DNA of 64,000 nucleotides from Macrocystis pyrifera (lineage: Eukaryota > Sar > Phaeophyceae > Laminariales > Laminariaceae), in NCBI GenBank assembly GCA_031763025.1, contig JASSKH010000001.1:6567024-6631023 (forward strand), in the 5' to 3' direction. The first letter of the stretch is position 1. Each line of letters opens with the position of its first letter. The position numbers and the translations under genes are program-made. Of this stretch, positions 2,380 through 61,205 are shown in pieces. Under the pieces are notes generated by a model that saw only the letters and a list, made by a program, of their open reading frames with translations, was not told the DNA's origin and did not search any database.

Positions 2380-2715
2380 AAGAACAGGAACGGAAACGGA
2401 AAGAACGCTCGAAGACGAAATAACAGAAATTCTCGCAGCGACAACGGAGAAGGAACAACAGGTAAGACTAGAGCGGATAGTGAAACGAAAAGGAGGCTGA
2501 GAATAGGATCATGGAACGTATGTGGCTTCGCCACGGAAGAACGAAAAAAAATAGGAACTGCCGAACAAGTAAGTAAGCGCGGCCTAGACATAGTTGGAAT
2601 TCAAGAGTCGTGGGAGAAAGAAGGAGGGGAGCTAGGATGCAAAGTCGGAGAGTACGCATGGATATGGAAAAAGAAGAAGAGACAGAATAGCAAGAATCGG
2701 AAGGCGGGGGGAAAA
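2380..2715 (+). pseudogene. LINE-A fragment: linker and start of endonuclease domain
   Basis: Matches the plus-strand LINE-A copy at about 60286-60610 and the minus-strand copy near 6000-6310. It encodes the basic linker and the first endonuclease motif (SWNVCGFATEE), followed by a GIQESWEKEG-like motif that would carry the catalytic Glu. Base changes and short indels break the frame. It stops abruptly near 2715, where a LINE-B 3' region begins. It cannot make a working enzyme. Confidence 0.75.
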
Positions 2716-3284
2716 AGAACCAAAGTAAAATAAAAGGTAAGCCGAAGCACACAGCACCCACCAGGTAGCGGCAGCAGGTTGTGGCACCGGTAGCATAGCC
2801 AGGTTCTCCCTGCTAGTCCGCCTGGTACCTTGCTACCCTGTCTGCCGTCTCCGTCCTGCGTTCGTCAACTCTGTCCGACCCCTTGGCGTCAGAGAGTTCG
2901 AGACAAGCAGAGCAGGCTCATCATCCACCCACCCCACACCACTCCTTCAATACAAAGGCTTATCAATCGAAGAAAGCGAAAGAAAGAAATTAAATGAAAA
3001 TCATAAAGAATCAGCACTAGAAAAAAACAACAAAGAACACAAGGGAACACCACGATCGAACCAGTTGCACCAGTTGGTGGCACGAGTAGCATAGGCATGT
3101 TCTACTTCCTAGTCGGCCTGGTGCCTTGCTACCCTGTCTGCCATCTCCTTCCTACTTTCGTTTATCGCAGTTTTTCTGCTACTCCTCCTGTTCGCCCCCC
3201 CCTCTCCGCATTCCTTTGGCCGGATTTTCCGCCGCTTACCTCTCACCAGAACTTACACTGCTTTAAAGTACTGCTTGTACTCGT
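2716..3284 (-). repeat. LINE-B 3' UTR fragment
   Basis: Carries the ordered blocks seen in LINE-B 3' regions at 24900-25400, 40920-41800 and 54900-55330: CCAGGTAGCGGCAGCAG, CTGCTAGTCCGCCTGGTACC, GTTCGTCAAC, a second TAGCATAGGCATGTTCTACT block, and CTTGCTACCCTGTCTGCC. On this strand the element reads right to left. The terminal tail with the ACATTAAACCG core is missing, so the 3' end is truncated where it joins the LINE-A fragment. Confidence 0.7.
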
Positions 3285-3873
3285 TCATGTCACGCAGGGG
3301 CTGCGGCAAGGCTGCGTGCTCTCACCGTTACTGTCCAACGTATTCTTCGCTGCTGCGTTACACGTCGTACCAGAACGCCTGGGCCAAGACGAAGCCGTCG
3401 TAAGGGGTTTGGTCCGACTGAGTGATGCTGGAGTAGTTGGAACGGAGGAGCAGGAGTCGTTGGCGTGCGTGTGCAGGGCTGTATGGGGCATGTTGTACGC
3501 CGAGGACGCAGGACTTGTCTCGAACTCGGCTGAGGAGCTCGCAAAAATAATGACAGTGATCGTGACTGTCTTCAAAGCATCAAGCCTCACGGTGTTGGAA
3601 ACGAAGACAAAGACAATGACTCTACGAACACCAGACCAGAAAACCCTCGCACCACCGCTCGTCATCGAAGCAGCAGGCCAGAGGTATAGGCAGACGGCCC
3701 AGTTATCATACCTAGGCGGCATTATCCACGAAAACGCTGACCTCTCGCTCGGAATCGACCGATGGATCCGTCTCATCCGAGCATGCCTCAAACGGTTCGG
3801 CCCGGAGCTCTATGATAGGACGACCGACCCTGCCAGCTTGAAAGTCCGAATGCTGAAGGCCGAAATGATACTC
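3285..3873 (+). pseudogene. LINE-B reverse transcriptase fragment
   Basis: Plus-strand reading frame that starts inside the RT domain at [15 protein letters not shown] (motif B region), passes the catalytic box, and continues through the thumb ([14 protein letters not shown]) to VRMLKAEM. The catalytic box reads YAED instead of YADD, a change expected to abolish polymerisation. The fragment is in inverted orientation relative to the LINE-B 3' UTR beside it. At 3873 it meets the truncated end of the minus-strand LINE-A copy, so two LINE families are fused tail to tail. Confidence 0.8.
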
Positions 3874-5283
3874 GTTGCAAACAACTACTGCGCGTTTCTT
3901 GACGTTCGCCGTCACCCTCCATTTCCTGGTGTATTCTAGCGCCTTCTCTATTTGTTTCTGCAATCCTTCGGGTGTTTCTGATATCCCCACGAAGTCATCC
4001 GCAAACATCAATCCCGATACCGTATCTTCCCCTACCGTGACTCCCTGCCTTGCTCCCTCGACTGCTACTATCAGGTCGTTAATATATATCTTGAATAAGT
4101 TAGGTGACAACGTACATCCTTGTGCAACACCTTGTAAAATATCAACATACTTCGATATTTCCCCGTCCAGCATCACAGCACTTCTCGCACATTCCGTCAT
4201 ATTTTTCATCGTTCTCCACATATCTAGAAAGAAACAGGACGTTGTTAGTCCCGCGTCTTTCCTACCTTGAATAATCTTACCTAAGGTGTACACATGGTCT
4301 ACGCAGCTACGGTTTGGCCTAAACCCTGCTTGTCCTTCGCTTATTTTGTCTTCCTTCTCCATCATCGTTCCCATTCTTTCGTTCAAAATCTTACAAAATG
4401 TTTTGCCTACTGTGCTTAGTAGCGTTATCCCTCTATAGTTCCCCGGGTCAGCCTTATCTCCTTTCTTGAATACATTTACTACTACTCCTTCTCTCTCTCT
4501 CCACCTCTTAGGTGCGTACTCGTTTTTCCATATCCAGTCATACAACATAACCGTCATGGTAAGCATTCCTTCTCCCCCGTACTTCATAAATTCATTCACT
4601 TTTTGGTCTGCCCCTGCTGCCTTTCTATGCTTAAGTTTAGCTACACACTTCTTTACTGCTTCCCTTGTGAACTCTCTCTGTAACCCTCCCGAACCACTGT
4701 CTTCCCTTTCTGATGTATCTACGTTCGCCTCTGCCCACGTGTTGATTTCCTTCTCGAATTCTGCATCGAGCGTTTCCTTGGCTGTGGGTGTTCCTAGCTT
4801 TCGGTAATGCCCTACTAGTACCTCCCTTTTCCCCTTCGAACTACTAACCATTTTACCGTTCTGTGCTCTTAGAGTAGCTATTCCCGTGTCTGCCTCTCCT
4901 GCTTGTTTGCTAAGTATCCCTTTTATCCCTGCCCACATCTGCTTCATCCCGCCCTCAAAGTCTTCATTCGTTTTATTTACTACGTCTTTCCATATCCCTT
5001 TCTTCTTCTTCTCTACCATCTCTTCTACCTTCTTTCTAGCTATAGCATATTCCTCCCACCCTGTCGAAGTTTTACTCGATGTATACCTTGCGTGTGCCTT
5101 TCTCCTTACTCTTATAGCCTATTTCGCTTCTTCATCCCACCATGTTACCGCTCTGTTGCACACTATCAACTTCTTCCCTATTACTTTACTTGCTGTGGTC
5201 TTGACCAACTGCTCCCATCCTTCCATTATCCTAGCTCCTGCATCATCCCTTGCTATATCGTTCCTTGTTGTACCTATTCTGTC
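3874..5283 (-). pseudogene. LINE-A reverse transcriptase domain, truncated
   Basis: RT of the non-LTR type. A second in-frame TAG lies at 5119-5121 (Glu in copy 2). From 5019 the frame is open. Landmarks counted from a Met at 5019: NYRGITLLSTVGK near residue 194, GFRPNRSCVDH near 232, FFLD near 263, GVAQGCTLSP near 297 and the catalytic FADD near 339. About 25 codons just after FFLD are deleted, removing the rest of motif A. Soon after VVCNE the frame leaves LINE-A and reads antisense LINE-B sequence, an artefact of the junction at 3873/3874. Confidence 0.8.
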
Positions 5284-5286
5284 CTA

Positions 5287-6171
5287 CAGCTCGGAAAATT
5301 TCTCTGCATGTTTGTCCATCTCTTCTTGGAACTCTTCCCGTTTCTCTTTTACTTCTTGTTTATCTATTCTCCATCGATACAATTTCCTACCTCTTCTATG
5401 TTTGATAACTCTCGTCTGTTGACTGTCTGTCCATATTAGACAGTGATCCGTAGTTCCTATGTCCGCTGCGCATACATGTAGTTCCGTTTCCTTACCACTT
5501 CCATTTTCTACTACTATAAAGTCAAGGATAGAGCTTTCTCCCTTTTGTATGTACTGTCTAGTCCATTCCGTTTCTGCCTTTTTTACTCTGTCGTTCAACG
5601 TTTTCATCTCGTTGTGCTTGAGGAACTTCAACATCTCTTCCCCATTTCTATTCTTTGTTACTTCTCCATATTGTCCAGTGTTCTCATTCAGTTTGCTTGC
5701 CCTCCCAATTCTTGAGTTAAAATCTCTCTCTAGTACTACTTCTCCTTGCCTCTTATACTTCTGTACATCTACTGCTACTTCTCCGAACTTCCTCTGTATA
5801 TCGTTTATCGTATTCTTCGACTCTGGGGGCATATATATGTTTCCGGAGAAGTAAAATTTCGCTCCCCGCTCCCCTGGAATCTTAATCCATATGCTTTCGT
5901 CGAATTTAGTGTCTTTGATCACATCTATTATGTCACACAGGTATTCTTTGACTAGGAACCCCACGCCCCCCGCCCCCCTACTCTTGCTATTCTGTCCCTT
6001 CCTCTTTTTCCCTATCCATGCGTACTCTCCAATTTTGCATCCTATCTCCCCTCCTTCTAACTCCCACGACTCTTGAATTCCCACTATATCTAGGTCGCGC
6101 TTACTTACTTGTTCGGCAATTTCGATTATTTTGCGCTCTTCCGTGGCGAAGCCACATACGTTCCATGATCC
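5287..6171 (-). pseudogene. LINE-A endonuclease domain
   Basis: Apurinic/apyrimidinic-type endonuclease that would nick target DNA to start target-primed reverse transcription. Visible motifs: GIQESW (catalytic Glu), DFNSRIG (metal and catalytic Asp/Asn; the preceding Gly is changed to Arg), SSILDFIVVENG, and TTDHCLIW (the terminal Asp-His pair). The first motif, around WNVCGFATEE, is out of frame because one base is missing near 6172 compared with copy 2. A TAG at 5284-5286 replaces a Leu codon and ends the open frame after FSEL. It is broken at both ends. Confidence 0.8.
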
Positions 6172-6335
6172 TTTCTCAGCCTCCTCTTCGTTTCACTATC
6201 CGCTCTAGTCTTACCTGTTCTTTCTCCGTTGTCGCCACGAGGATTTCTGTTATCTCTTCTTTGAGCATTATTTTCGTTTCCGTTCCTGTTCTTATCTGCT
6301 TGTTCTGCGCCCCTATGTTTCTCCCCCATTCCCTT

Positions 6336-6731
6336 TCAGCCACTTGCTGTTTCCTGCCCCTCCCTACCTTCGTTCACCCTAGGGCTACGTCTTAGTTTCG
6401 TTATTCCATTAGCTATACATACTCTCCATCCTAGTCTTCTAACCCATGCCGACACTTTTTCTGTCTCTATCCTCTGCCACTCCATGCTCGCTTTCAGCTT
6501 CAGAGTGACTCGAAAGTGTTCTCCCTCTCGTTCTACGTTTCCTATTGCAAAGCAATACAGTCCTACTTCGTCGCACTTCCTCTTGAACTCAATCCTTGTC
6601 ATGTCGCTAGAAACTCCAAATATCAGCACTACTAGTACTTTACCCTGCCAATCTGTCTTTCTCCACCCACCCTTCCTCACCGTCTTTCTCCTAATCTCTT
6701 CCGAGAATATCTCCAGATTGTTTGTGTTCAT
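6336..6731 (-). pseudogene. LINE-A N-terminal region (131 aa)
   Basis: Starts MNTNNLEIFSEE, has a basic stretch, and ends ETASG followed by TGA. In the other copy the same codon is TCA (60239-60241 region), and the frame there runs on into the endonuclease. I therefore infer that the intact element has one long ORF in which this region is the N-terminal part, not a separate ORF1. The segment with EFKRKCDEVG and VERE-GEHFRVTLKLK looks like a small alpha/beta RNA-binding fold, but I recognise no named domain. The ATG matches the start in copy 2 at 59848. Confidence 0.65.
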
Positions 6732-6908
6732 AGTGGTAGTGGGAGGTGTTCAAGTTACTGGGACTTCCCAATCCTAGTAGTCGTTGAGGGTCTGGTGTCT
6801 TTCAGTTCTTTTGCCGGCGCACCACACTAAATAGTGTCTCCAACACGGGCTCGTAGCCTGGAGCCAAGTTCAACACCCTTCACACAAGTACCCCACGTTT
6901 GTGTCAGG

Positions 6909-22650: not shown

Positions 22651-23320
22651 ACAGGAGGAGTAGAAGGGAAACCGCGGTAGAAGAGAGTAGCAGAGAGACC
22701 GCAGATAGGGTAGCAAGGTACCAGGCCGACTAATAGGTTGGACTTTTCTTTGCTACTCGTACCGCCAACTGCTGCGGCCGTTCGGTATGCATTTTGATTT
22801 TTTCCCTTCTTATCCTTATGAAAGAAGTATTACATAGTGGGTGGGTGACGAGCGTATTTTGGCCCACTCACTATTGCTCTTTTTACTTAGTTAAGTGTTC
22901 ACCGGGATGCATAGTCCCCTTTTTCCTTCTCGTATCTTTCCCCTTGCACGTCCCTTTTGGCTCATTCTCGGGGTAAGTATGTATGTGTCTGAGCTTTGGC
23001 TTCCCATTTTATTTATTTATTTGGGATTCTTCTCCTTTTCTTTTTCTTTTTCTTGTTCTTTTTCGGTTTGGTTTTTTCGTTGCTTCTCTTTCTTTATGGT
23101 GTATTTTGGTTGCTGGCGTATGTATGTATGTTGTGTCGGCCGCACCTAGTGCGAAGGCATGGTATTACGTAGGCTATTAATGCATTACGGTGTGTTATCT
23201 CTGTGTCGTAGTCTGTGACCACAGAGCTCGTATCTTTCTAGGGTGAAGAATCAGCACGGACACTGGGCTTGCTGGATGTCGACGAGTAGAAGAACGGTTT
23301 AATGTGAAGAACACACACAC
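22651..23320 (+). repeat. LINE-B 3' end, severely 5'-truncated, plus orientation
   Basis: Nearly identical, as an inverted copy, to 25784-26463. It starts inside the last 25 codons of the LINE-B ORF (RETAVEESSRETADRVARYQ), then has the stop, the whole 3' UTR of this subfamily, the tail core GTTTAATGTGAAGAA and a short AC repeat. The open frames inside (for example 22794-23180) are UTR sequence. With the minus-strand copy it forms a large inverted repeat around a 2.46-kb spacer. Confidence 0.85.
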
Positions 23321-24042
23321 GCACTTGTTTGTGCAGCAGTGTGACAGCTTTCCAATTCTTCTGCCTTTCCTTGTCTCTGGTGAGAGACGATCGTACGTAG
23401 TTGTTGATATATTACTATATATATGCGATGCTAGGCCTCCTGCGATGGTGGTCAACACGCCGGTGTATGAGCTTCACTGCGTGCTCTTGAGACTTCTGGC
23501 TCATTCGAAAGCTCTCGGCAAGAGCTTTCCGAGCTTTGTTCCAGATATTTAGGCTCAATTCCTGTAGATCCTGACGAACAGAAGCAAAACGCGCCTCAAA
23601 AATTGCTTTTAGATGCTTCCACCATACCAGGTACTCGAAAAAAACGAAAAGAAAACAGTGAGTCCGTCAGGGTTGTTGTTGTGTTCATCTAGAAAAACTG
23701 TATGTATTTCCTTCAAACCACACAAAAAAAAAACGTCAGGTTTACTGACAGGGACTGCTGTGTGTACGTTGTAATTCCGTGAGCAAGACTAGACAATGCA
23801 ATGCCATGTCATCGTACAGACTACAAATACACGACATACTAATTCTACTTACAACTGTAGAATAGGTTTGAAGTGCAGTGCACCATTGGTGGCGCGCCTC
23901 TTACGCATTACGGGCCTACCTGGCAAGAGTCGTGGTGTGCGTGCTGAGAGCTGAAGCTTCACCACAAACAGTTCAGGATGGTTTGAAGGCGCTGCTCAGC
24001 AATGCAGAAACTTGAACTGCGCCTGGTCAGATCTTGCACGGG
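23321..24042. other. No gene recognised
   Basis: Spacer inside the inverted repeat. Short frames only; no repeat that recurs in the window. Confidence 0.4.
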
Positions 24043-24172
24043 TAGTGGTGGGTGATGCTTTCTTGACAAGTTGGGGTTTTTTCTTAAATCAAGTGAAAGG
24101 TGGCCGAGGTTGGGGGGGGGGGGGGGGTCTAACAGGCACCCACTTCGTAGTTATATTTACCGGTGGTATATG

Positions 24173-25607
24173 TTGTTGTTGTTGTTGTTGTTGTTTTCTT
24201 TCACATTAAACCGTTCTTTCTACGCGTCGACATCCAGCACAACCAGTGTCCATGCCGATTCTTCAAACCTAGAGAGATACAAGTTCTGTGGTCACAAAGC
24301 TACGCCACAGATACTACGTTGCCACGTATGTAATGCAATGCCATGTCATCATACTGCGTACGACAGGCACGACATGGGCATTCCATGACCTAGAGAAACA
24401 AAAACGAAACAAAGAGAAAAAACAAAAACAAAAACAACGACAATTCGAAAGAGAAAAGAAACACAAAAAAGAAACAAAAATATACCTGGTTTTCACACAT
24501 TTTGTTTTCTTCACATTAAACCGTTCTTTCTACGCGTCGACATCCAGCACAACCAGTGTCCGTGCCGATTCTTCAAACCTAGAGAGATACAAGTTCTGTG
24601 GTCACAAAGCTACGCCACAGAGATACTACGTTGCCACGTATGTAATGCAATGCCATGTCATCATACTGCGTACGACAGGCACGACATACACATTCCATGA
24701 CCTAGAGAAACAAAAACGAAACAAAGAGAAAAAACAAAAACAAAAACAAAGACAATTCGAAAGAGAAAAGAAACAAAAAAGAAACTAAAATATACCTGGT
24801 ATATGTATATACTTCAGTATAGCAGCAAACTATCGTACACCCACGTAGGGGACGTGGCAGACACTTGAAAAGAACGAGCTGGAAAAAAAAAGAAAAAGAA
24901 GAAAACACCACTAGTCGCCAACAGAGTAAGACTAAGAACCAAGGTAAAAATAACAGTCAAACCAAACAGAGCACAAGGCATGCTCCAGGTAGCGGCAGCA
25001 TTTTATGGTACGAGTAGCACAGCCAGGGTCTCCCTGCTGGCCCGCCTGGTACGTCCAGCGTTCGTCAACTATGCCCGGCCCTTCGGCGTCAGACAGTACG
25101 AAACAAGCAGAGCAGGCTCGTCATCCACCCACGCCACACGACTCCTTCAATAAGGCTTATCAATCGAAGAAAGGAAGAGAAATGAAAATCACATAGGGTC
25201 ACCGCAAAGAAGACAATAAAATGAAATAAAAATAAACAAAAACAACAGGAAGACAAAGGAAGACCACGTTCGAACCAGCTGCACCAGTTGGTGGTACGAG
25301 TAGTATAGGCATGTTCTACTTCTTAGTCTGCCCGGTACCTGGCTACCCTATCTGCCATCTCCTTCCTACTTTCGTCCACTGCAGTTTCCCTGCTACTCCT
25401 CTTCCCCCCCCTCTCCGCATTCCCTTGGTCGGGTTTTCTGCTACTCCTCTTGTTGCCCCTCCTCCCCCCATTCCCTTGGACACCACCCACGGCGGATGCG
25501 CGGCGCTGCCTGCTCAGCTCAGCCTCAGCCTCGTGCCACCTCACCATGAACCGTTCGGCTGCTTCCAGGATCCCCCGGTACCACTTCCCCGCCCTTTTGG
25601 CAGCAGT
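24173..25607 (-). mobile_element. LINE-B insertion 1, 5'-truncated, with duplicated tail
   Basis: Reads right to left. The 5' end at 25607 lies in the C-terminal coding part (GKWYRGILEAAERFMVRWHE through DRVARYRAD, stop near 25323). It is followed by the pyrimidine-rich 3' UTR and the tail core with ACATTAAACCG on the plus strand. The 3' end at 24173 is an (ACA)n run (TGT on plus). The final 300 bp is present twice in tandem (about 24196-24504 and 24505-24805). It can make no protein. Filled versus empty site fixes both ends. Confidence 0.85.
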
Positions 25608-25783
25608 AGCATCCTCTCGCTGCTGTAAATATCGACGAAAGATATACATATATTATACCTGGTACCACGGATTATCTATTATTAAAGAACCTAATATATT
25701 ATGATAGATAGAACTTCTGGATATGCTGATCAGAGAACACGATGTGCGTGTGATATTCATAACTTCTTGGTCGGCCGATTACA

Positions 25784-28700
25784 GTGTGTGTGTGTGTGTG
25801 TTCTTCACATTAAACCGTTCTTCTACTCGTCGACATCCAGCAAGCCCAGTGTCCGTGCTGATTCTTCACCCCCTAGAAAGATACGAGCTCTGTGGTCACA
25901 GACTACGACACAGAGATAACACACCGTAATGCATTAATAGCCTACGTAATACCATGCCTTCGCACTAGGTGCGGCCGACACAACATACATACATACGCCA
26001 GCAACCAAAATACACCATAAAGAAAGAGAAGCAACGAAAAAACCAAACCGAAAAAGAACAAGAAAAAGAAAAAGAAAAGGAGAAGAATCCCAAATAAATA
26101 AATAGAATGGGAAGCCAAAGCTCAGACACATACATACTTACCCCGAGCATGAGCCAAAAGGGACGTGCAAGGGGAAAGATACGAGAAGGAAAAAGGGGAC
26201 TATGCATCCCGGTGAACACTTAACTAAGTAAAAAGAGCAATAGTGAGTGGGCCAAAATACGCTCGTCACCCACCCACTATGTAGTACTTCTTTCATAAGG
26301 ATAAGAAGGGAAAAAATCAAAATGCATACCGAACGGCCGCAGCAGTTGGCGGTACGAGTAGCAAAGAAACGTCCAACCTATTAGTCGGCCTGGTACCTTG
26401 CTACCCTATCTGCGGTCTCTCTGCTACTCTCTTCTACCGCGGTTTCCCTTCTACTCCTCCTGTTCCCCCCCCTGCCCCTATACACTTGTACGGTGTTCCC
26501 TCTACCCCTCCTGCTGTTACCCCTCCCCCCATTCCCTCTAACACTACCTGCAGCGGATGCACGGCGCTGTCTACTCAGCTTTGCCTCAGCCTCGTGCCAC
26601 CTGCCCATGAACTGTTCAGCTGCTTCGAGGATTCCCCGGTACCACTTTCCCGTCTGTTTTGCTGCAGTGGGCCACAGTGCGGTCCCAACTCCAAAGACTA
26701 AGGGGGAGTCTTCCGTTGATCCCTCTGAGGCTTTGAACACTCTAAGGTCCTCAGCAATTGCCCTAGGCCAAGTCTTAGGCTGCCCGCCTGGTTTCGGGCT
26801 CCCCCCACCAGCGATCGTCCCGAACATCAACCGACTGGGCAATCGCCCCTCGTGTTGCCGCACCACAGCCCCCGCAAAGAAGAGTCACCGTTTACGGATG
26901 GTCGTTTCGATACTTTCGCATCGTGTTATCCTGAGCGCCTTCGCATACGAGAGGGTGGTGTGGTCGGTGCGTAATCGGCGCTGGAAACCAATGACTCGCA
27001 GAAGGACTTCGTGGTGGGCTGATCGAAGCTTGGCGAAGTGGTCCGCATTGAGGGTCCACGTCACGCAACCGTACAGCAAGGTCTCAATCACCTCGGCCTT
27101 CAGCATCCGGACTTTCAGACTAAGCGGTGCGTTCGTCCTATCGTACAGTTCCGGACCATACCGTTTGAGGCATGCCCGCATCAGACGGATTCGTCGCTCG
27201 ATTTCGAAGGAGAGGTCAGCGTTCTCGTGGATAATGCCTCCTAGGTACAAAAACTGGGTCGTCTGTTTATACTTTTGGCCTGCAGCTTCGATCGCGAGCG
27301 GTGAGGTGGTAAACGTCTGATCCGGTGTTCGTAGGAGCATCGTCTCTGTCTTCTTCTCGGATACCGTGAGACCTACTGCTTCGAAGACAGTCACGATGAC
27401 TGTCATCATTCTCGCAAGGCCTTCCGCCGACTTCGAGACTATTCCTGCATCGTCTGCATACAACATGCCCCACACAGCCCTTTGCACGCATGCCAACGGT
27501 TCCTCTTTTCCGACAACCCTGTCCTCTTCGAGATGAACCAAATCCCTTACGATGCATTCGTCTTTGCTGAAGCGTACCAGCACGATGTGTATCGCAGCGG
27601 CGAAGAACACGTTGAACAGTAACGGCGATAGTACGCAGCCTTGCCGCAGTCCCTGGGTTACATTGAACCAGTCCGAGTGTTCACCGTCATCCACACGCAC
27701 GCGAGCCCGCATGCCTTCGTGAAAATTGCGAATGATTGTGAGCATCTTGGTTGGTACACCAAGGCGTGTGAGTACCTCCCACAACAGTTCTCGGTCGACA
27801 GAGTCGTACGCTTTCTGCAAGTCGATAAAGCACATGTACAGGGGGATTTTCTTCTGCCGCCCGAGCTGCTGCAACCGGCGCACGACAAACAGCATATCGA
27901 CTGTTGACCGTGCGGGGCGGAAGCCACACTGTTCTTCAGGGAGTATATGCTCGGTCTCGCAGTAGCTGCTAAGACGGGACGCAACGATTTTCAGCAACAC
28001 CTTGCCTGCGTGAGCAACAAGCGAAATACCTCTGTAGTTGTTGCAATCAGTTCTATCCTTCTTTTTATGAAGGGTTTTTATGATCGCATCTTTCCATTGC
28101 TGGGGGACTTCTCCCGTTACCCAAACGTTAACAAGGATACTGTGAAAATACTGCACGAAAGCGGGGTGGTCAAGTTTCAGTACTTCGACCGGGAGACCAT
28201 CTGGTCCAACGGCTTTCCAGTTTGACATACCCTTCACTGCTTCCATCATCTCGTCAATGGATGGTTCATTTCCAAGGGATAGTTTCAGCGGTCGTGGTGG
28301 CACTAGGTCGATGATCGTGGGGTCAAGTTTCAGCGATTTCGTGTTCAATAGTTTGTGGTAGTGCCCCGCCCATCTTTCACGAATTCGCGCTTGATCTCGC
28401 AACAGCGTGCCATCCTCGTCCATGATAAACTGTTCACTCCTCGCTTTCGTACCTTGCAACCCTACCGTACTCTTCAGGTGCTTGTAGAACCCTCGTTGAT
28501 CGGAACTCGCGAGGAATTTCTCGGTTTCAGCGAGGTACTCTTCAAAATACGCATTGACTCCTGCGGCGACCACTTCCTGCAGATTCGCACAGGCGGATCT
28601 CAACTTCTTCCACGCTGTACTATCTCGGGGGTAGACACGCAGGAGCTGTCTCGCATCCTCCCTCGCTGTCCATGCTACTTTGAAAGCGGCCACCGTTTCG

Positions 28701-28834
28701 GGGGTCTCACACCAACCGTTTCGGTGGTGGCGACGTGGTGGAGGTGGCACCTCTTTCTCAACAGCATTCATGACAGTTGTGGTGAAAAACTCAACCATGC
28801 CAGACGTGTTACGAGGCTGGGTAGGTTGGTTAAG
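25784..28834 (-). mobile_element. LINE-B insertion 2 (longest copy), lacking the endonuclease
   Basis: 3,051 bp, ends fixed by comparison with the empty unit. The 3' end at 25784 is an AC repeat following the tail core. The 3' UTR (25784-26380) differs from that of insertion 1 and matches 22651-23320, so at least two LINE-B subfamilies exist. The 5' end is cut inside the protein, upstream of the RT domain, so no endonuclease is encoded. Confidence 0.85.
26381..28834 (-). pseudogene. LINE-B reverse transcriptase polyprotein with one nonsense codon
   Basis: Would copy the element RNA onto nicked target DNA. A long frame begins with ATG at 28891, but its first 19 codons belong to the duplicated unit; LINE sequence starts at [12 protein letters not shown]. 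Counting from that [15 protein letters not shown] near 228, [17 protein letters not shown] near 285, [10 protein letters not shown] near 321, [12 protein letters not shown] near 355 (motif A Asp 357), [11 protein letters not shown] near 413, YADD at 478-481, [13 protein letters not shown] near 555. The catalytic residues are intact. TGA at 26885-26887 replaces an Arg codon seen in other copies (IRKRRLFFAG). The same frame then continues to TADRVARYQAD and the stop at 26381. Confidence 0.85.
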
Positions 28835-29573
28835 TACGCGTCGTGCGTGCGTATGCACACAAACCCGTTGAAATTGCACTGGGTAGAGCATACGCGCATC
28901 ATGGTGCTGCCCTGGCGCCCTGACAGTTAGTAGTGGGGGCGGGGCACGACGCGCACGCCAAGTACGTGTGTATATTTTTCTAATAGACCAAACGTCAGGC
29001 CGTTGCGTACGCGGTTCGATTCCGAGTTCCGAGCTTCCATTTTTTCGTTTTTCGATCCCTTCACATGTTCAAAGAAAACGTCCGCTTATTATGCAGTCCG
29101 AATATGCAAAAATCTTACCAGAGTTTTTTCGATTTGAAAAACTGATGGCCCAAGTAAGGCCCTAGCCTTTAAGCCATGCCAGAAAAAGGGTCTAATCTAG
29201 TGTTTCTCAAACAGTCGTGCCTGAACTACCGTTTTCGTGCCTGGTTTGCCTCTTTTTTGCCCGGCACGGGTCAGGCACGCTCACAGACATTTAAGGCATA
29301 ATCAAAGAACACCGTTCGTTATACATAGCCTGGAACGCCCGAATTCTATATTTGTAGGGTCCCCGTAGCCCGTAGCAGCCACACAGCCCACAGCCCATAG
29401 CCCACAGCTTTGACCACGGAAACTCTCCTATTATGATGTAAAATAACAGGCCGGACGAAATTAAATTAAACTGGCGCGACACGCAATTAAATTAAATTGG
29501 CGCGAAGCGCCAACAACGAGGGAGCAAAGCGACCAAAGATTTTCTTGCCGACAGGAGATTTGTTTTTGTCGTA

Positions 29574-30610
29574 TAGTGGTGGGTGATGCTTTCTTGACAA
29601 GTTGGGGTTTTTTCTTAAATCAAGTGAAGGGTGGCCGAGGTTGGGGGGGGGTTCTAACAGGCACCCACTTCGTAGTTATATTTACCGGTGGTATATGTAG
29701 CATCCTCTCTCTGCTATATATATCGACGAAAGATACACATATATTATACCTGGTACCACGGATTATCTATTATTAAAGAACCTAATATATTATGATAGAT
29801 AGAACTTCTGGATATGCTGATCAGAGAACACGATGTGCGTGTGATATTCGTAACTTCTTGGTCGGCCGATTACATTACGCGTCGTGCGTGCGTATGCACA
29901 CAAACCCGTTGAAATTGCACTGGGTAGAGCATACGCGCATCATGGTGCTGCCCTGGCGCCCTGACAGTTAGTAGTGGGGGCGGGGCACGACGCGCACGCC
30001 ATGTACGTGTGTATATTTTTCTAATAGACCAAACGTCAGGCCGTTGCGTACGCGGTTCGATTCCGAGTTCCGAGCTTCCATTTTTTCGTTTTTTCGATCC
30101 CTTCAAAGAAAACGTCCGCTTATTATGCAGTCCGAATATGCAAAAATCTTACCAGAGTTTTTTCGATTTGAAAAAGTGATGGCCCAAGTAAGGCCCTAGC
30201 CTTTAAGCCATGCCTGAAAAAGGGTCTAATCTAGTGTTTCTCTAACAGTCGTGCCTGAACTACTGTTTTCGTGCCTGCTTTGCCTCTTTTTTGCCCGGCA
30301 CGGGTCAGGCACGCTCACAGACATTTAAGGCATAATCAAAGAACACCGTTCGTTATACATAGCCTGGAACGCCCGAATTCTATATTTGTAGGGTCCCCGT
30401 AGCCCGTAGCAGCCACACAGCCCACAGCCCATAGCCCACAGCTTTGACCACGGAAACTCTCCTATTATGATGTAAAATAACAGGCCGGACGCAATTAAAT
30501 TAAATTGGCGCGACACGCAACTAAATGAAATTGGCGCGAAGCGCCAACAACGAGGGAGCAAAGCGACCAAAGATTTTCTTGCCGACAGGAGATTTGTTTT
30601 TGTCGTATAG
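29574..30610. repeat. Tandem unit copy 2, empty of insertions
   Basis: 1,037 bp continuous sequence. The positions that correspond to the LINE-B insertions are 29698/29699 and about 29875. Its right 735 bp is a near-identical copy of 28835-29576, with small indels and substitutions. It contains a promoter-like box-B word GGTTCGATTCC (also in copy 1) and the hairpin at 30531-30547. Confidence 0.9.
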
Positions 30611-32154: not shown

Positions 32155-32247
<93 letters not shown>

Positions 32248-32478
32248 CTGCGCTGTCACGCCACGCCATGAGTGCTGCTGCTGTGCACCTGCTGCTCCTG
32301 TGCACTTGCTGCTGCTGTGCACTTACTGCTGCTGTAGTGCTGCTGCGTTGTTGCCGTGCGTCATGCTGGAAGTGTACATATTTTCGGATCGTCAATAAAA
32401 TTCCGTAGGTTTCGCGATGGCGGCATACTATTAATAGGGTACATGATGCTTTTTTTCTTCCATATTTTCATATCGTTG

Positions 32479-32528
<50 letters not shown>

Positions 32529-34320
32529 ACGCTGCTGCTGCCAACGCTGCGGCGATTCATTGCAGCTTCTGCTGCTGCTAATGCTGTAGCTGCTTCTGCT
32601 GCTAATACTGCCGCAATATCCACTGAATGTTCGTATTTACTCGGATTACTGTTTTGATTGGTCGTTTTTGTACCCAAATGGTTCTTTTGATACGTGAAAA
32701 ATATTTTTGTCGTTTTGCTCCTGCATTTTGCGTACGTACTGCTTTTTCTCGTTTTAGGCTTGATTTTTTTCCTATCGTTGCTTTGCTGCTGCTTGCTGCT
32801 GCTGTGGTGCTGCTGCGTTGTTGCTGTACATCATGCTGCACTTGTGTGTGTACATATTTCTGTATCGTCACTGAATTTCCGTAGGTTTTGCGATCGCGGC
32901 ATACCAAGGTACATAGTTTTCTTGTTCCTTATTTTCATATCGTTGCTATGTTGCTGCTGCCAACGCGGATTATTGTTTTTGTTGGCCGTTTTTGTACCCA
33001 AACGTTTTTTTTTTTATACGTAAAAAAAATATTTTGGTCGTTTTGCTCCTGCATTTTGCGTACGAACTACTTTTTCTCGTATTTTAGCTTGGTTCTTTTC
33101 GTATTGTTGCTATGCTGCTGCTGCTGCGTTGTTGCCGTACAGCATGCGGGGGTGGGTCTATCTATAGTGAGGTACCAAAAATACTTTTCGGACGGACTCG
33201 GGGTACATACTTTTTTTCTTCCTTCTATTCATATCGTTGCTATGCTGCTGCTGCTGCTGCTGCTGCTAGTGGTGCCGCAATATTCACTGAATGTTCGTAC
33301 GTACTCGGATAATTGTGTTTATTGGTCGTTTTGTCGTTTTGTGGCGCTGCTGCGTTGTTCCCGTACACATCATGCTGGACATGATTTGTGTGCACTTGTG
33401 CGTGTGTACATATTTCTGTATCGTCAACGATTTTTTTTGTGGTGTTGCTGCGTTGTTGCCGTACATCATGCTGGACGTGATTCGTGTGTGTATTACACTC
33501 GTGTGTGTGTACATATTTCTGTATCGTCAATAATTACCGTACGTTTTGCGATTGCGGCCGACCAGGGTACGTAGTTTTTTTCTTCCTCCTTTTCATATCG
33601 TTGCTATGCTGCTGCTGCTGCAGCCAACGTTGCGGCGATCCGTTGCTGCTGCTGCTGCTAATGCTAATGCTAATAATAATGCTGCCGCAATATTCACTGG
33701 ATGTTCGCATGTACTCGGATTATTGTTTTTCTTGATCGTTTTTGTACCTAAATGGTCGTTTGGGTACCTGGAAAAAATATTTTTTGGTCATTTTGCTGCT
33801 GCATTTTGCGTACGTACTGCTTTTTCTCGTTTTGGGCTTCGTTCTTTCCATATAGCTGCTACGCTGTTGTGGTGCTGCTGCTGCGTTGTACATCATGCTG
33901 GCCATTTGTGTGCACATTTTTTTGTTTCGCCAATGAAATTCCGTAGTTTTTTTGCGGTCGCGGCATACCAGGGTACATACTTTGTTTCTTCTTTTTTATC
34001 ATATCTTTGCTATGCCGCTACTGCTGCCAACGCTGCGGCGATCCTGCTGCTTCTGCTGCTGCTAATGTTTCTAATGCTGCCGCAACCACTGCTCGAAGCC
34101 GTTGCGGCTGCTGCTGCTGCTGCTGCTGATACTGCTAATGCTGGCTCAATATCCACTGATTGTTCTTATGTATTCGGATTACTGTTTTTCTTGGTCGTTT
34201 TTGCACCCAAATGGTCGTTTTGGTACGTTAAAAAAATGTTTTGGCCGTTTTCCTGCTGCGTTTTACGCAAGTACTTGCTGCTTCTGCTGCTGCTGCTGCC
34301 GTCGTATAGCAAGCGATTAC
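32040..34320. repeat. Complex satellite, about four units, with embedded CTG microsatellites
   Basis: Two anchors repeat in alternation. Anchor 1 (ATATTTCTGTATCGTCAATG, then TTCCGTAGGTTTTGCGATCG) occurs near 32378, 32850, 33506 and 33912. Anchor 2 (ACCCAAATGGTCGTTTTGG, then GAAAAATATTTT) occurs near 32670, 32993, 33745 and 34203. Each unit also has CATTTTGCGTACGTACTGC, ATCGTTGCTATGCTGCTGCTG and CCAACGCTGCGGCGAT. Unit length varies (about 320-750 bp), partly through CTG copy number. Long Leu, Ala or Ser frames here come from the CTG runs and are not genes. Confidence 0.75.
32156..32246. repeat. (CTG)n microsatellite, about 30 units
   Basis: About 90 bp of uninterrupted CTG. Shorter runs of the same triplet lie at about 32481-32525, 33241-33268, 33607-33622 and 34109-34130, always at the same place in the satellite unit. 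It can read as poly-Leu, poly-Cys or poly-Ala on plus and poly-Ser, poly-Gln or poly-Ala on minus; no flanking frame supports translation. Confidence 0.95.

Positions 34321-34366: not shown

Positions 34367-34417
<51 letters not shown>
34367..34417. repeat. Homopolymer of 51 C
   Basis: An unbroken C run directly right of the satellite. The minus strand is G51 and could form stacked quadruplexes. Shorter C or G runs lie at 6907-6917, 24112-24127, 44064-44082 and 52504-52520. The length in the true genome may differ, because such runs are hard to sequence. Confidence 0.9.
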
Positions 34418-40128: not shown

Positions 40129-40130
40129 TA

Positions 40131-40235
40131 TTACAGGGGACCATAGTTAACGGGACCAAATATTGTTAGTAAAAATATTTAAACATATAGGTTTTTATGT
40201 ATGCCATAGGTCCTATTAACTATGGACCCCCGTAA
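40131..40235. mobile_element. MITE copy 2, TIRs and TA target duplication
   Basis: 105 bp between TA dinucleotides (40129-40130 and 40236-40237). The left arm TTACAGGGGACCATAGTTAA and right arm TTACGGGGGTCCATAGTTAA (other strand) pair over 27 bp with about four mismatches, extending to GGGACC/AGGACC. The middle shares AAATA-TGT-AGTAAAAA and TATAGGTTTT with copy 1. Confidence 0.8.
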
Positions 40236-40989
40236 TAGGTTTATTCTAGACTATTAGTTATTTCGCTCTCTCTCTGCTGCAGAGTGCTGTTTGTTGTACC
40301 GACCACACACAAACCACCGCTCTCCCTCCCTCCCTCTCATCTCTTCTCTCAGACCAAAGTTAGCACAGCGCTCTCTCTCCCCTTCCCCCGAACCAAAAGC
40401 AATCTTAGCACAGCAGTTAGTACGAGTAGGGGTAGTGACAGATCATGGACGATGCTTCCAACTTGGTGACATATACAGTGTTGATATCCAGACACAAAAA
40501 GTGGGCATTGTTGTTGTTTTCTTCACATTAAACCGTTCCTTCTACCCGCCGACACCCAGCACAACCACGTGGCGATTCTTCAATCTTAGAGGGATACAAA
40601 TTCTGTGGTTACAAAGCTACGCCACAGAAATACTACGTTGCCACGTATGCAATGCAATGCCATGTCATCATACTGCGTACGACAGGCACGACATATCCAT
40701 ACCATGACCTCGAGAAACGAAACGAAAAAAAGAGAAAAAACAAAACAAAAAAACAAAGAAGACAATTCGAAAGAGAAAAAGAAACATGAAGGAATATACA
40801 TATATATATATACATATGAAACCAACTATCGTGTCCCCTCCCGCAGGGGATCTGGCAGACACTTGAGAAAAACTAACTGGAAAAACAAATAAAAAGAAGA
40901 AAAACACCACTATTAATAGTCGTCGTCAACAGAGCAAGACTGAGAACCAAGGGAAAATAACAGGCAAACCAAACAAAGCACAAAGCATC

Positions 40990-47960: not shown

Positions 47961-50900
47961 GTCCGACTTGGACTTCGAGAAAATGTCAGGAAATTCGCAG
48001 GGACCATCCCCCAGTTATTTGACGGCCTCCGGAATCCAGTCCGCGCCGTGAAGGCCAATGCCACCACTCGCAGATATTACGGCAAACTTGCCGAGACGCG
48101 CAGGAACGAAGCGTGCTGTTCTTGACTAAAAACCAGCTCTAGCAGGGCAGGCGAAGGCGAGGCTGGAGCTGCGCGGGGTGAAGCCGTGACTGTTGAGACT
48201 AGAAATACCTCAGATAGTCCAGAGGGAGGATTGGGGACTCGGTGGTCGTGCTGCAAAACATCCAGCACGACGCTCATCAGTGGGGCGCGGGCAACGCCGA
48301 GGTTGTCCCCCGGGCCGAGATCCGCCACATCAACGAGGGGAAGAACCTGTCGCCCAGAGGCGACGAAATGCTCTGGCTTGAGCATCATGTCCATTAAGTA
48401 TTGTCCAGTGAATGCCGGCGACCCATCGCCCTGAACCAAATTAACTGCACTTAGTTGAGGATCGTACGACAGGGTGACGCGTGAGGCGACCTAGTAGCGT
48501 AGATGAAAGCCTGCAGTCGGAGCGGCGGGGTCAATGGAGTAAACGAGCATGCCTGTCGGAGTGTGGTGAGCGAACTCCATCTTGCCAAATAACGCGTTGG
48601 TCAGACTGTCGAAGTGGTAAATAGCGGTAGGAGCGACTATTGGCACGCATCCAGCTGTCACGTCCCGGCAGCACTGCATGCTGCATCACTGAGGGGGAAC
48701 CACACAGGCCCAAACTGCCAAGGAGCATATAGGCTCCTCTTCTCCAAAACAAAAAAGTAGCCGCTGAGGCGTACACTCGTCGAAGGTTTCAGAGGGGTTT
48801 GTTCGCCAAAGCCTCCTCAAAAACAAGAGGTGTCTTTCTGCTCTCACGCGACGGATGCCGCACCAACCGAGAGCATACAATCTAAAACTCTTCGAATGAA
48901 AGTCGGTGAGGAGCCAGAGGCAAGACGCTTCACACAGCTGAAAGGTGCTAGAGCGCCAGATCGGCTGTGAATCTCTTTTTGTGTTGCAAAAGAGGCGTCG
49001 GCAAGGGTATGGTGCCTCCGACGAGGCAGGGGCCGTGTCGGGGAGGGGGTCGATTCTAGGTGCGACAGCCAAACGTCGGGGCTGTGAATGGCAGGAACGT
49101 CAGAAAAACAGGCCGAAACTTCCAAGGGAGTATCTACCAGGGGCATGCGCGGGCCACGGCCAAAGGGCGGGGCGGCGCTGGTAAAATAGCATGATTTTTG
49201 TCCGGCGTGGTCGAAGTGCAAAGTTGATGAGAGGAGGTGAGATGGGCCACCCCGGCCTAACTTGCGCGAAGGGTGCGGAAAGAGCTTTTCCGACCTTTTG
49301 TTTTCCTCGCGACCGAGAGTGATCTTGGGCCTCGGGGTCGTCTGCCCGGAGACCGATGACCCACACGGGGTCAAACGGGCTTGCTTCAGTCAAAACATTA
49401 TTGTCAGTGCCCAAACGATGCTTCATGGCTGGTTTCTGCGTGAACTTGGCAAACGTGTCTCGGGCGGCTGGCAGGCTCACCGCAGGCGCAGCCAGAACGA
49501 GGCTTATACTTCCAGCTGGGGCTCCAGCCTCTGGAACTTGTCGGTTTGTCGCTGCGAAGCCTGTTCGGACAACGCGCAGAGCTTCGCTGGCGCGGGAGGT
49601 GGCTTCCCTGGCCCGTGAGGTCGTCGTCTAGAGCACGGCTTCCTCTGAGGCGCGGGTGGTAGCCTTCGAAGCGCTGGCGGCAGCGTCCGAGATGCTGACG
49701 GCAGCTGAAGCTGCTTGTTTGGCCGCAATCTCCCGCTTTCGCATGGCCTTCTCAGAAGCGGCCCCGAATGCTTCGGCCGCAGCGAGTTCAGCCTGGTTTT
49801 GCGCCGCTTGTTCGAGCGCCGCCACCGTGTTCGCTTCGACGTGGTCCGAATGTCCGACCATTGCTTGAAGATTACCGTCCTGGTCGGCGTGGAGAAGAGG
49901 GTCCATGATCCAGAGGGCATACGGGCCGAGCCTTGAACACTGTCGCTCGAGACCTGGAGGGTGGTGGGCTGTAAGTCCTGATCCGCGACTGCCAGCCTAG
50001 AGTCCGCCGAGTTGGGGTCTCGAGATCCGCAGAGCTCTCCGGGGTCCCGGGGGTTGGCTATGGGAACGTCAGCGCGCCCGACGAGGAGCATATCTGTGCG
50101 GAAAAGAACGTGACGCCCTGCTCTACGGAAAGGAGCCGTATGTCCTCGGCCTGCTGGCCGTCCTGGCGGGGCCGGGAATTTCCTCCCTTGACATGCTGGG
50201 GCGGTGACCGGCGAAAAACATCAGGGCAGGGGAGGATACCGGAGCAGCGGGGGGCGGGATCTGGTGGTCCTCAGGGTCATTGGACGCAGGAGCAGCAGGG
50301 GTAGCAGCAGAGGCAGCAGCAACAACTTGTACTTCACCAACTTGTACGGCAGTGGTCAAAGTGTGGCGTGCCATGGGGTGAGCGCTGCGAGCGCTGAAAG
50401 CGCGAGCATCGATCACAGAAAGTGGCACGATGGAAGGGCGGTCGCCTGGCCGGTCTCCACTGCCCGCGCGTGCACCAACAGCAAGTCTGGTTGATCCTTT
50501 CACGTCCCCGGTACTGAACGGCCCAATGAAAGCACCGGTTCCTCTAACAGCAGTATTAAAACTTGCATCAACACTGAAATTCCCGGCAGAACCTTCGTTG
50601 GTGGCTAAAGCAGCGAGGAAAGCAGGCTTAACACTTGAACCCAGTGTGTCATCGTGTGGACGAGGCGCGGGAAAAATCACGACCAGCAATTTGGGTTGTG
50701 GCCATCATGCGAGTACGAGCAGGGTCGGACAGCAGTGGAATACGAAGTAAAAAATCCGTCGCAAACAGGCCCTCGTCTTGCCCAAAACCAGGTGGATCCG
50801 ATGGCGAAGAGCGAAGCTGGGTGGCGGGGAGAGCGTTGCTTCCAGGTTTGTCCGGCGTGCTCGGGTCCAGATCAAAAGCTGCTGTAACCACGGCCTGGCT

Positions 50901-59669: not shown

Positions 59670-59847
59670 CCTGACACAAACGTGGGGTACTTGTGTTGAG
59701 GGTGTTTAACTTGGCTCCAGGCTACGAGCCCGTGTTGGAGACACTATTTAGTGTGGTGCGCAAGCCAACGAACTGAAAGACACCAGACTCTCAACGAGTA
59801 CTAGGATTGGGAAATCCCAGTAACTTGAACACTTCCCACTACCACTA

Positions 59848-61205
59848 TGAACACAAACAAGCTGGAGATATTATCGGAAGAGATTACGAGAAAGACGGTG
59901 AGGAAGGGTGGGTAGAGAAAGAAAGATTGGCAGGGTAAAGTACTAGTAGTGCTGATATTGGAGTTCCTAGCGACACGACAAGGATTGAGTTCAAGAGGAA
60001 GTGCGACGAATTAGGACTGTATTTCTTTGCAATAGGAAACGTAGAACGAGAGGGAGAACACTTTCGAGTCACTCTGAAGCTGAAAGCGAGCATGGAGTGG
60101 CAGAGGATAGAGACATAAAAAGTGTCGGCATGGGTTGGAAGACTAGGATGGAGAGTATGTATAGCTAATGGAATAACGAAACTAAGACGTAGTCCTAGGG
60201 TGAACGAAGGTAAGGGGAGGCAGGAAACAGCAAGTGGCTCAAAGGGAATGGGGGAGAAACATAGGGGCGCGGAACAAGCAGACAAGAACAGGAACGGAAA
60301 CGAAAATAATGCTCAAATAAGAGATAACAGAAATCCTCGTGGCGACAACGGAGAAAGAACAGGTAAGACTAGAGCGGATAGTGAAACGAAAATAAGACTG
60401 AGAATAGGATCATGGAACGTATGTGGCTTCGCCACGGAAGAGCTCAAAATAATCGAAATTGCCGAACAAGTAAGTAAGCGCGAACTAGACATAGTGGGAA
60501 TTCAAGAGTCGTGGGAGAAAGAAGGAGGGGAGATAGGATGCAAAGTTGGAGAGTACGCATGGATAGGGAAAAAGAGGAAGGGACAGAATAGCAAGAATAT
60601 AGGGGGGCGGGGGGTGTGAGGTTCCTAGTCAAAGAATACCTGTGTGACATAATAGAGGTAATCAAAGACACTAAATTCGACGAAAGCATATGGATTGAGA
60701 TTCCAGGGGAGCGAGGAGCGGGGAGCGAAAGATTACTTCTCAGGAAACATATATATGTCCCCAGAGTCGAAGAATACGATAAAAGATATACAGAGGAAGT
60801 TCGGAGAAGTAACAGTAGATGTACAGAAGCATAAGAGGCAAGGAGAAGTAGTACTAGTGGGAGATTTCAACTCAAGAATTGGGAAGGCATGCAAACGGAA
60901 TGAGAACATTGGACAATATGGGGAAGTAACAAAGAATAAGAATGGGGAAGAGATGCTGAAGTTCCTCAAGCGCAACGAGATGAAAACGTTGATCGACAGA
61001 GTAAAAAAGGCAGAACCGGAATAGACTAGACAGTGCATACAAAAGGGAGAAAGCTCTATCCTTGACTTTATAGTAGTAGAAAAATGGAAATGGTAAGGAA
61101 ACGGAACTACATGTATGCGCACCGGATATAGGAACTACGGATCACTGTCTAATATGGACAGACAGTCAACAGACGAGAGTTATCAAAAATAGAAGAGGTA
61201 GGAAG
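59848..61205 (+). pseudogene. LINE-A copy 2 N-terminal region and endonuclease
   Basis: Start MNTNKLEILSEE at 59848; TAG near 59912 and a TAA near 60117 interrupt the first 130 codons. From 60122 the frame is open into RLRIGSWNVCGFATEE, which joins N-terminal region and endonuclease in one ORF. Then GIQESWEKEGG, a frame change near 60605, FLVKEYLCDII, another near 60720, GDFNSRIGKA (VLVGDFN intact here), a TAG at 61022-61024 replacing a Trp codon, a one-base shift near 61080 and TTDHCLIW near 61140. All endonuclease motifs can be seen, but in different frames. Confidence 0.8.

Follow-up and report, generated by a model that had tools for sequence, protein, structure and literature searches.

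Empty and filled target sites in Macrocystis pyrifera suggest near-blunt insertion by an abundant LINE family

What does a retrotransposon leave at its target when the flanks of its copies show no obvious duplicated bases? This question is raised by a 64,000-nucleotide stretch of the Macrocystis pyrifera genome (contig JASSKH010000001.1, positions 6,567,024 to 6,631,023; hereafter the window), in which two copies of LINE-B, a family of long interspersed nuclear elements (LINEs), interrupt one of two tandem ~1.04-kb units. The first-pass annotation, made from the letters of the window, had read the uninterrupted unit as the empty form of both insertion sites. We joined 24043-24172, 25608-25783 and 28835-29576 and aligned the result to 29574-30610. 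The alignment was identical in 1,017 of 1,051 columns. Trimmed to the exact unit, it covers 1,031 aligned bases, of which 17 are substituted, and contains several indels, which confirms that the two units are matched filled and empty copies. One G-run is longer by 6 G and 8 bp are added elsewhere; the remaining indels are three single bases, of which two fall at the joins. The units meet at a 3-bp microhomology, TAG. Both inserts (1,435 and 3,051 bp) proved to be as described, lying on the minus strand, 5'-truncated and ending in simple repeats, (AAC)n and (AC)n, and the 176-bp segment that the annotation had marked as hit twice has an insertion on each side.

The joins themselves are clean to within a few bases. 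Join 2 is one base short of the empty site. The overlap at join 1 is 0-2 bp and its placement is ambiguous, because GT is present on both filled sides. The joins lose at most one base, as had been proposed. The accompanying claim that they carry no target-site duplication (TSD) stands in that no flank is duplicated, with the qualification that at join 1 this is certain only within about 2 bp. The joins had also been taken to fix the true ends of the family; given the 5' truncation of both inserts, this is correct for the 3' end only, and the 5' end came from other copies.

A genome search with the 1,037-bp unit gave 45 matches (40 of 1,218 candidates scored). Among the matches listed, the whole unit was covered only by the two copies in the window (unit 1 in pieces); the others were partial, and those outside the locus fell mainly at unit positions 618-909 and 944-1037. 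Positions 944-1037 (30517-30610, the last ~94 bp) are a dispersed repeat, and 12 outside matches begin at 944 (the query ended at 1037). The extra 8 bp of unit 1 (29060-29067, facing 30101/30102 of unit 2) reads TTCA-CATG-TTCA against one TTCA and has the look of a transposon footprint or of a short templated insertion.

LINE-B was then characterized across the 537,376,219-bp assembly (223 contigs). The exact 22-base 3' end together with the beginning of the AC tail was counted 3,546 times, and its reversed control 0 times. Searching with the reverse transcriptase (RT) of element 2, the 3,051-bp insert, returned 61 scored matches at 98-100% protein identity, the window's own included (the best 61 of 11,442 first-look candidates). 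A longer copy contains a single open frame of 1,248 amino acids with predicted endonuclease and RT domains, PF03372 (Exo_endo_phos) at residues 126-381 (E = 2.8e-7) and PF00078 (RVT_1) at 688-963 (E = 1.6e-34); beyond residue 963, a Pfam scan of this frame with E up to 0.1 gave no match. Because domains of an apurinic/apyrimidinic endonuclease (APE) and an RT are predicted in one frame, LINE-B is, by its domain content, an abundant APE-type LINE, that is, a non-long-terminal-repeat retrotransposon. Searches of the PDB matched only L1 ORF2p, R2 and other RTs, and the endonuclease part alone drew one irrelevant match (E = 0.88). Rfam at the gathering threshold gave no match, a tRNA search found none, and in viral contigs six stretches fit a pattern for RT relatives, of which 0 were confirmed. 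An alignment of the endonuclease with the window's other endonuclease open reading frames (ORFs) was of too low quality and went unused.

To survey insertion junctions, we sampled 40 of the 61 scored RT places, taking 10-kb stretches for 20 of them and end pieces for the other 20; the sample consists of RT-containing copies, with short copies left out. Both ends could be parsed in 38, all of which carry an (AC)n tail; the other two were L040, with a variant 3' end and a visible AC tail, and L048, whose 3' piece reads N. Every one of the 39 copies whose 3' end is readable thus ends in an AC tail. An (AAC)n tail was seen in element 1, the 1,435-bp insert, and 5 relatives. The 5' starts of the 38 parsed copies range over positions 1 to 1388 of the reference stretch, and the 3' end lies at the tail. 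With three copies from the window, this gave 41 insertions read at both ends. For each we compared the beginning of the 3' flank with the final 80 bases of the 5' flank, recorded the longest match and set it against shuffled pairs. The first-pass annotation had called for just such a check of other LINE-B ends, and none of the 41 insertions had a TSD of 8 bp or more. The distribution of match lengths was near chance at every length, 3-5 bp included, with 7 insertions against 6.8 in shuffled pairs at 5 bp, 3 against 2.2 at 6 bp and 1 against 0.8 at 7 bp. Planted repeats served as control because the ends of LINE-A in the window were not clean, and LINE-A was rejected as a positive control; repeats of 5, 6, 8 and 10 bp were recovered in 41/41.

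The joined flanks of 39 insertions were searched against the window and the fetched loci, and in 16 cases a paralogous empty site spanned the junction. The gap between the flank ends on the empty site gives an offset, negative where bases are duplicated. At the six empty sites with at least 94% identity, the offsets were 0 (L020), -2 (L025), +1 (L027), -1 (L029), -5 (L037) and -1 bp (L044), the value for L037 being ambiguous because it falls inside an ATAC run; two sites of lower identity gave -3 (L026) and 0 bp (L043). No duplication is needed to explain L020, L027 or element 2, the last of which loses one base. Extra bases occur at the 5' junctions of L011 (41) and L025 (four), and 5' microhomology was seen at several sites. 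Judging from these offsets, LINE-B cleavage looks near-blunt, with scatter. The earlier suggestion that staggered cutting is absent comes close: the cut looks near-blunt, but 2 and 3 bases are duplicated at L025 and L026, respectively.

Some targets were used repeatedly. Three same-site pairs occur in the sample (L011/L026, L015/L023 and L019/L043), and because the 5' starts differ within each pair, these are separate insertions. A pattern search for the L011/L026 site found 4 places, of which 3 share the exact base and the fourth lies six bases upstream. For the L019/L043 site, which lies in a repeat resembling a miniature inverted-repeat transposable element (MITE), two pattern searches found 5 and 6 places with a union of 9, of which 8 are at the exact base on 8 contigs and 1 is offset by four bases. 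The places other than L019 and L043 are known by matched letters alone, and most differ in tail length or flank. The chance expectation for one MITE position and orientation is about 0.14 insertions, a rough figure calculated from 21 cores in 263 kb and extrapolated from LINE-rich loci.

The tail also tends to match its target. For (AC)n-tailed insertions, 12 independent empty sites could be compared (from the 16, dropping L011 and L023 as same-site repeats, L024 and L033); a mean of 2.17 bases just before the 3' flank matched the tail, against 0.74 at random positions, a value reached in 5 of 20,000 draws; adding the two window elements, with values 3 and 0 entered by hand, gave a mean of 2.07, reached in 3 of 20,000 draws. 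Where the tail ends in A, the next base was T in 14 of 18 cases against 0.328 expected (p = 1.2e-4; L011, L023 and L043 dropped as same-site partners). The young copies suggest that LINE-B prefers certain exact targets, roughly CA|TR on the sense strand, with YCCA|TR at the two recurrent sites. The idea that insertion occurred by another route, raised in the first-pass annotation, is not favoured because one exact nucleotide is shared across contigs and an APE endonuclease domain is predicted.

The divergence of each component suggests a relative chronology for the locus. Units 1 and 2 are 1.65% apart, or about 0.82% per branch. Element 1 carries 8 private differences in 1,081 positions compared with 5 relatives (0.74%), and element 2 carries 5 in 3,045 compared with 15-20 relatives (0.16%). 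Because the values rank in this way, they fit an order in which the duplication came first, element 1 followed soon after and element 2 is recent. Gene conversion between the units, reverse-transcription errors or unequal rates could blur this order. Towards its 5' end element 1 has 4 substitutions close together, but this clustering was not significant (P = 0.20).

Table 1. Tandem units, LINE-B copies and empty recurrent sites in the window
Feature	Position	Strand	Remarks
Third young LINE-B copy	22651..23324	+	5'-truncated; no TSD seen; 99% identical to 3' part of element 2
Unit 1, first piece	24043..24172	+	aligns to 29574-29697
LINE-B element 1	24173..25607	-	1,435 bp; 5'-truncated; (AAC)n tail; doubled ~312-bp 3' end; (AAC) subfamily
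Second recurrent site, empty form (TGA)	24698..24700	+	inside element-1-type sequence; used in L011, L026
Unit 1, second piece	25608..25783	+	176 bp; flanked on both sides by insertions
LINE-B element 2	25784..28834	-	3,051 bp; 5'-truncated; (AC)n tail; young subfamily; RT frame broken by a stop
Unit 1, third piece	28835..29573	+	aligns to 29876-30607
Unit 2, uninterrupted	29574..30610	+	empty state of both sites; TAG at tandem junction
Palindromic MITE-like repeat (~110 bp)	40129..40238	-	empty form of hot site GGGGGTCCA|TAGTTAATAGGACC; empty site for L043; fold -44 kcal/mol

We consider it probable that LINE-B inserts by APE-endonuclease target-primed reverse transcription, with near-blunt cleavage at a CA|TR-like target, and that at this locus a duplication was followed by elements 1 and 2. 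The LINE-B endonuclease would nick the primer strand beside the target, presumably before the other strand, and the (AC)n or (AAC)n tail would pair with a few target bases and so prime reverse transcription. The second strand would then be cut almost opposite the first nick, with both cuts probably made by the element's own endonuclease. Such an insertion would duplicate about 0-3 bp or lose a few bases, and its 5' junction would often show microhomology and now and then carry extra bases. Locally, a tandem duplication with the 3-bp microhomology would have been followed by insertion of element 1 and then element 2 into the upstream copy, the downstream copy staying empty. The empty and filled states, the missing longer TSDs, the recurrence at exact sites and the tail-target match are the observations on which this model is built. 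How LINEs choose the position of the second-strand cut is called unclear in two accounts (PMC2881922, PMC6895275); blunt insertion is described as the result when the second nick is aligned with the first (PMC2881922), and APE LINEs as tending to a 10-20 bp stagger (PMC6895275).

A bolder proposal is that blunt or near-blunt cleavage is the normal mode of LINE-B, that its targeting is semi-specific, with an endonuclease preference for YCCA|TR-like sites, and that the (AC)n tail fits the primer strand left by cleavage; we offer this tentatively and regard it as rather doubtful. If true, tail and site choice would be coupled, and the arms of dispersed MITEs would act as landing pads at an exact nucleotide. 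With its thousands of 3' ends, seemingly near-blunt insertions and exact sites recurring in dispersed repeats, this young family provides many ready empty controls within one genome, and annotation dependent on TSDs would overlook a family of this kind.

Several observations weigh against near-blunt, site-preferring insertion. Element 2's own site in the window has no tail match, and tails ending in C show no preference for T (7/18). Fetched sequence covers two of the 8 MITE places, L019 and L043, and the independence of the other six is judged from contigs and flank letters. Empty sites of lower identity are messier (L035 +2, L034 +4, L015 +6 and L009 with about 7 bp missing), although some of the sequence in the positive offsets is tail-like. 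No offset could be read for L011 and L023, the tail of L024 is irregular and L033 lacks an anchor. The endonuclease is a putative one, identified by profile match. An earlier test that counted tail or element bases gave matches of 7-10 bp in 4 of 41 insertions against about 0.5 expected; in these four (L010, L017, L026 and L037) the match was lengthened by the CA of the tail or by element bases, and it was gone once the tail was excluded. Finally, the tail and 5' microhomology blur each TSD by a few bp, and a fixed stagger of 2-5 bp is possible.

Such blurring would suit an ordinary short-stagger LINE whose 3-5 bp duplications, as in L2 and CR1, are masked by the tail and by 5' microhomology, in which case little here would be new. 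TSDs of L2 and CR1 peak at 3-5 bp and about half of ZfL2-2 copies are reported to have extra 5' nucleotides (PMC4245944), and the duplicated bases at L026 and L025 and the 41 extra bases at L011 are in keeping with this. However, the sites that need no duplication, including element 2 with its lost base, and flank matches near chance at all lengths argue for the near-blunt model, and the di- or trinucleotide tail differs from the octamer of avian CR1 (PMC8665684). We therefore regard a masked short stagger as unlikely, although it is a serious contender. It is very unlikely that LINE-B complementary DNA was instead caught at existing double-strand breaks and end-joined independently of the endonuclease. 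The lack of longer TSDs, the 5' microhomology at several sites and the occasional extra bases (L011, L025) would all follow from such capture, but random breaks do not predict reuse of a single nucleotide, so that recurrence at the exact base in 8 of 9 and 3 of 4 places weighs against it. The AC tail on all 39 readable 3' ends, the small offsets at the six cleanest sites and the retained endonuclease domain do so as well.

Two further explanations concern the age of the copies and the integrity of the locus. Some LINE-B copies sit in old, diverged repeats, as would be expected if normal TSDs had been made and had then decayed. Yet protein identity is 98-100% across the 61 scored RT matches and element 2 has acquired only its few private changes; in copies this young most 8-bp repeats should survive, and empty sites at 98-99.5% identity (L020, L027 and L029) also lack a TSD, making decay scarcely credible. 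Unit 2 might instead be an assembly artefact or the product of a precise excision, which we judge highly improbable. Two alleles set in tandem could give differences like those observed, but one sequence falsely doubled would not show 17 substitutions and several indels, and LINEs are not known to excise precisely.

Compared with known LINEs, near-blunt LINE-B resembles RTE and RTE-X in having APE and RT domains in one frame, a simple-repeat (di- or trinucleotide) tail and 5' truncation. Among brown algae, recent activity of RTE-2 and RTEX-1 is noted in Saccharina (PMC4421812), and in Ectocarpus RTE-X is listed as highest in copies among LINE groups (PMC12477816). The TSDs differ: reported peaks are 10-12 bp for RTE, 13-15 bp for L1 and 3-5 bp for L2 and CR1 (PMC4245944), with 10-12 bp given for SR3 (PMC1291365) and 6-12 bp, in one case 20 bp, for RTE of Lepidoptera (PMC2887409), whereas LINE-B shows about 0-3 bp and 0/41 at 8 bp or more. 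The Tn-TA signature, as outlined in PMC13295347, was not evident in 39 LINE-B insertions (T at 0.46, 0.26 and 0.18 at positions -12, -11 and -10). LINE-B is like L2 and CR1 in its very short TSDs and extra 5'-junction nucleotides (PMC4245944), and like CR1 in its microsatellite 3' end (PMC8665684). It differs from both in its (AC)n or (AAC)n tail with no octamer and in several sites with 0 bp or a loss; as to a peak at 3-5 bp, the six cleanest sites lie between -5 (ambiguous) and +1 bp, and flank-match lengths are near chance. R2 has a restriction-like endonuclease and uses one site in ribosomal DNA. LINE-B differs from R2 and CRE in its predicted APE domain and the lack of a Pfam match C-terminal of residue 963, and from R2 in its many sites, and resembles R2 of Drosophila melanogaster, for which blunt target cleavage is described (PMC6895275). 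Because tail and frame resemble RTE/RTE-X but the TSD does not, and the junctions resemble L2/CR1 but the tail does not, we file LINE-B no further than as an APE-type LINE with near-blunt insertion, a variant of known LINEs. A literature search, mostly of titles and abstract openings, found no algal APE LINE with near-blunt insertion; we claim no priority.

Other features of the window touch on LINE-B or lie beside it. The doubled ~312-bp 3' end of element 1 is at 24191-24800, and 3 other places in the genome span all or nearly all of a doubled end; an element with this structure may have moved in that form. At 2715-3869, a LINE-B 3' part on one strand adjoins an RT segment in inverted orientation, an arrangement like the 5' inversion produced by twin priming. 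A run of 51 C occupies 34367-34417, and in L016 a long C run stands immediately upstream of the LINE-B 5' end, at the 5' junction; these runs could be either biology or assembly noise. A long degenerate GCT/TGC repeat stretch at 32156-34300 overlaps open frames. A second LINE family with endonuclease and RT is present at 3872-6908 and 59670-62794, in opposite orientations and about 94-95% identical. The ORF at 49103-49627 on the minus strand matches a NADAR domain (E = 2.9e-9), a domain mentioned in transposons in PMC12477816.

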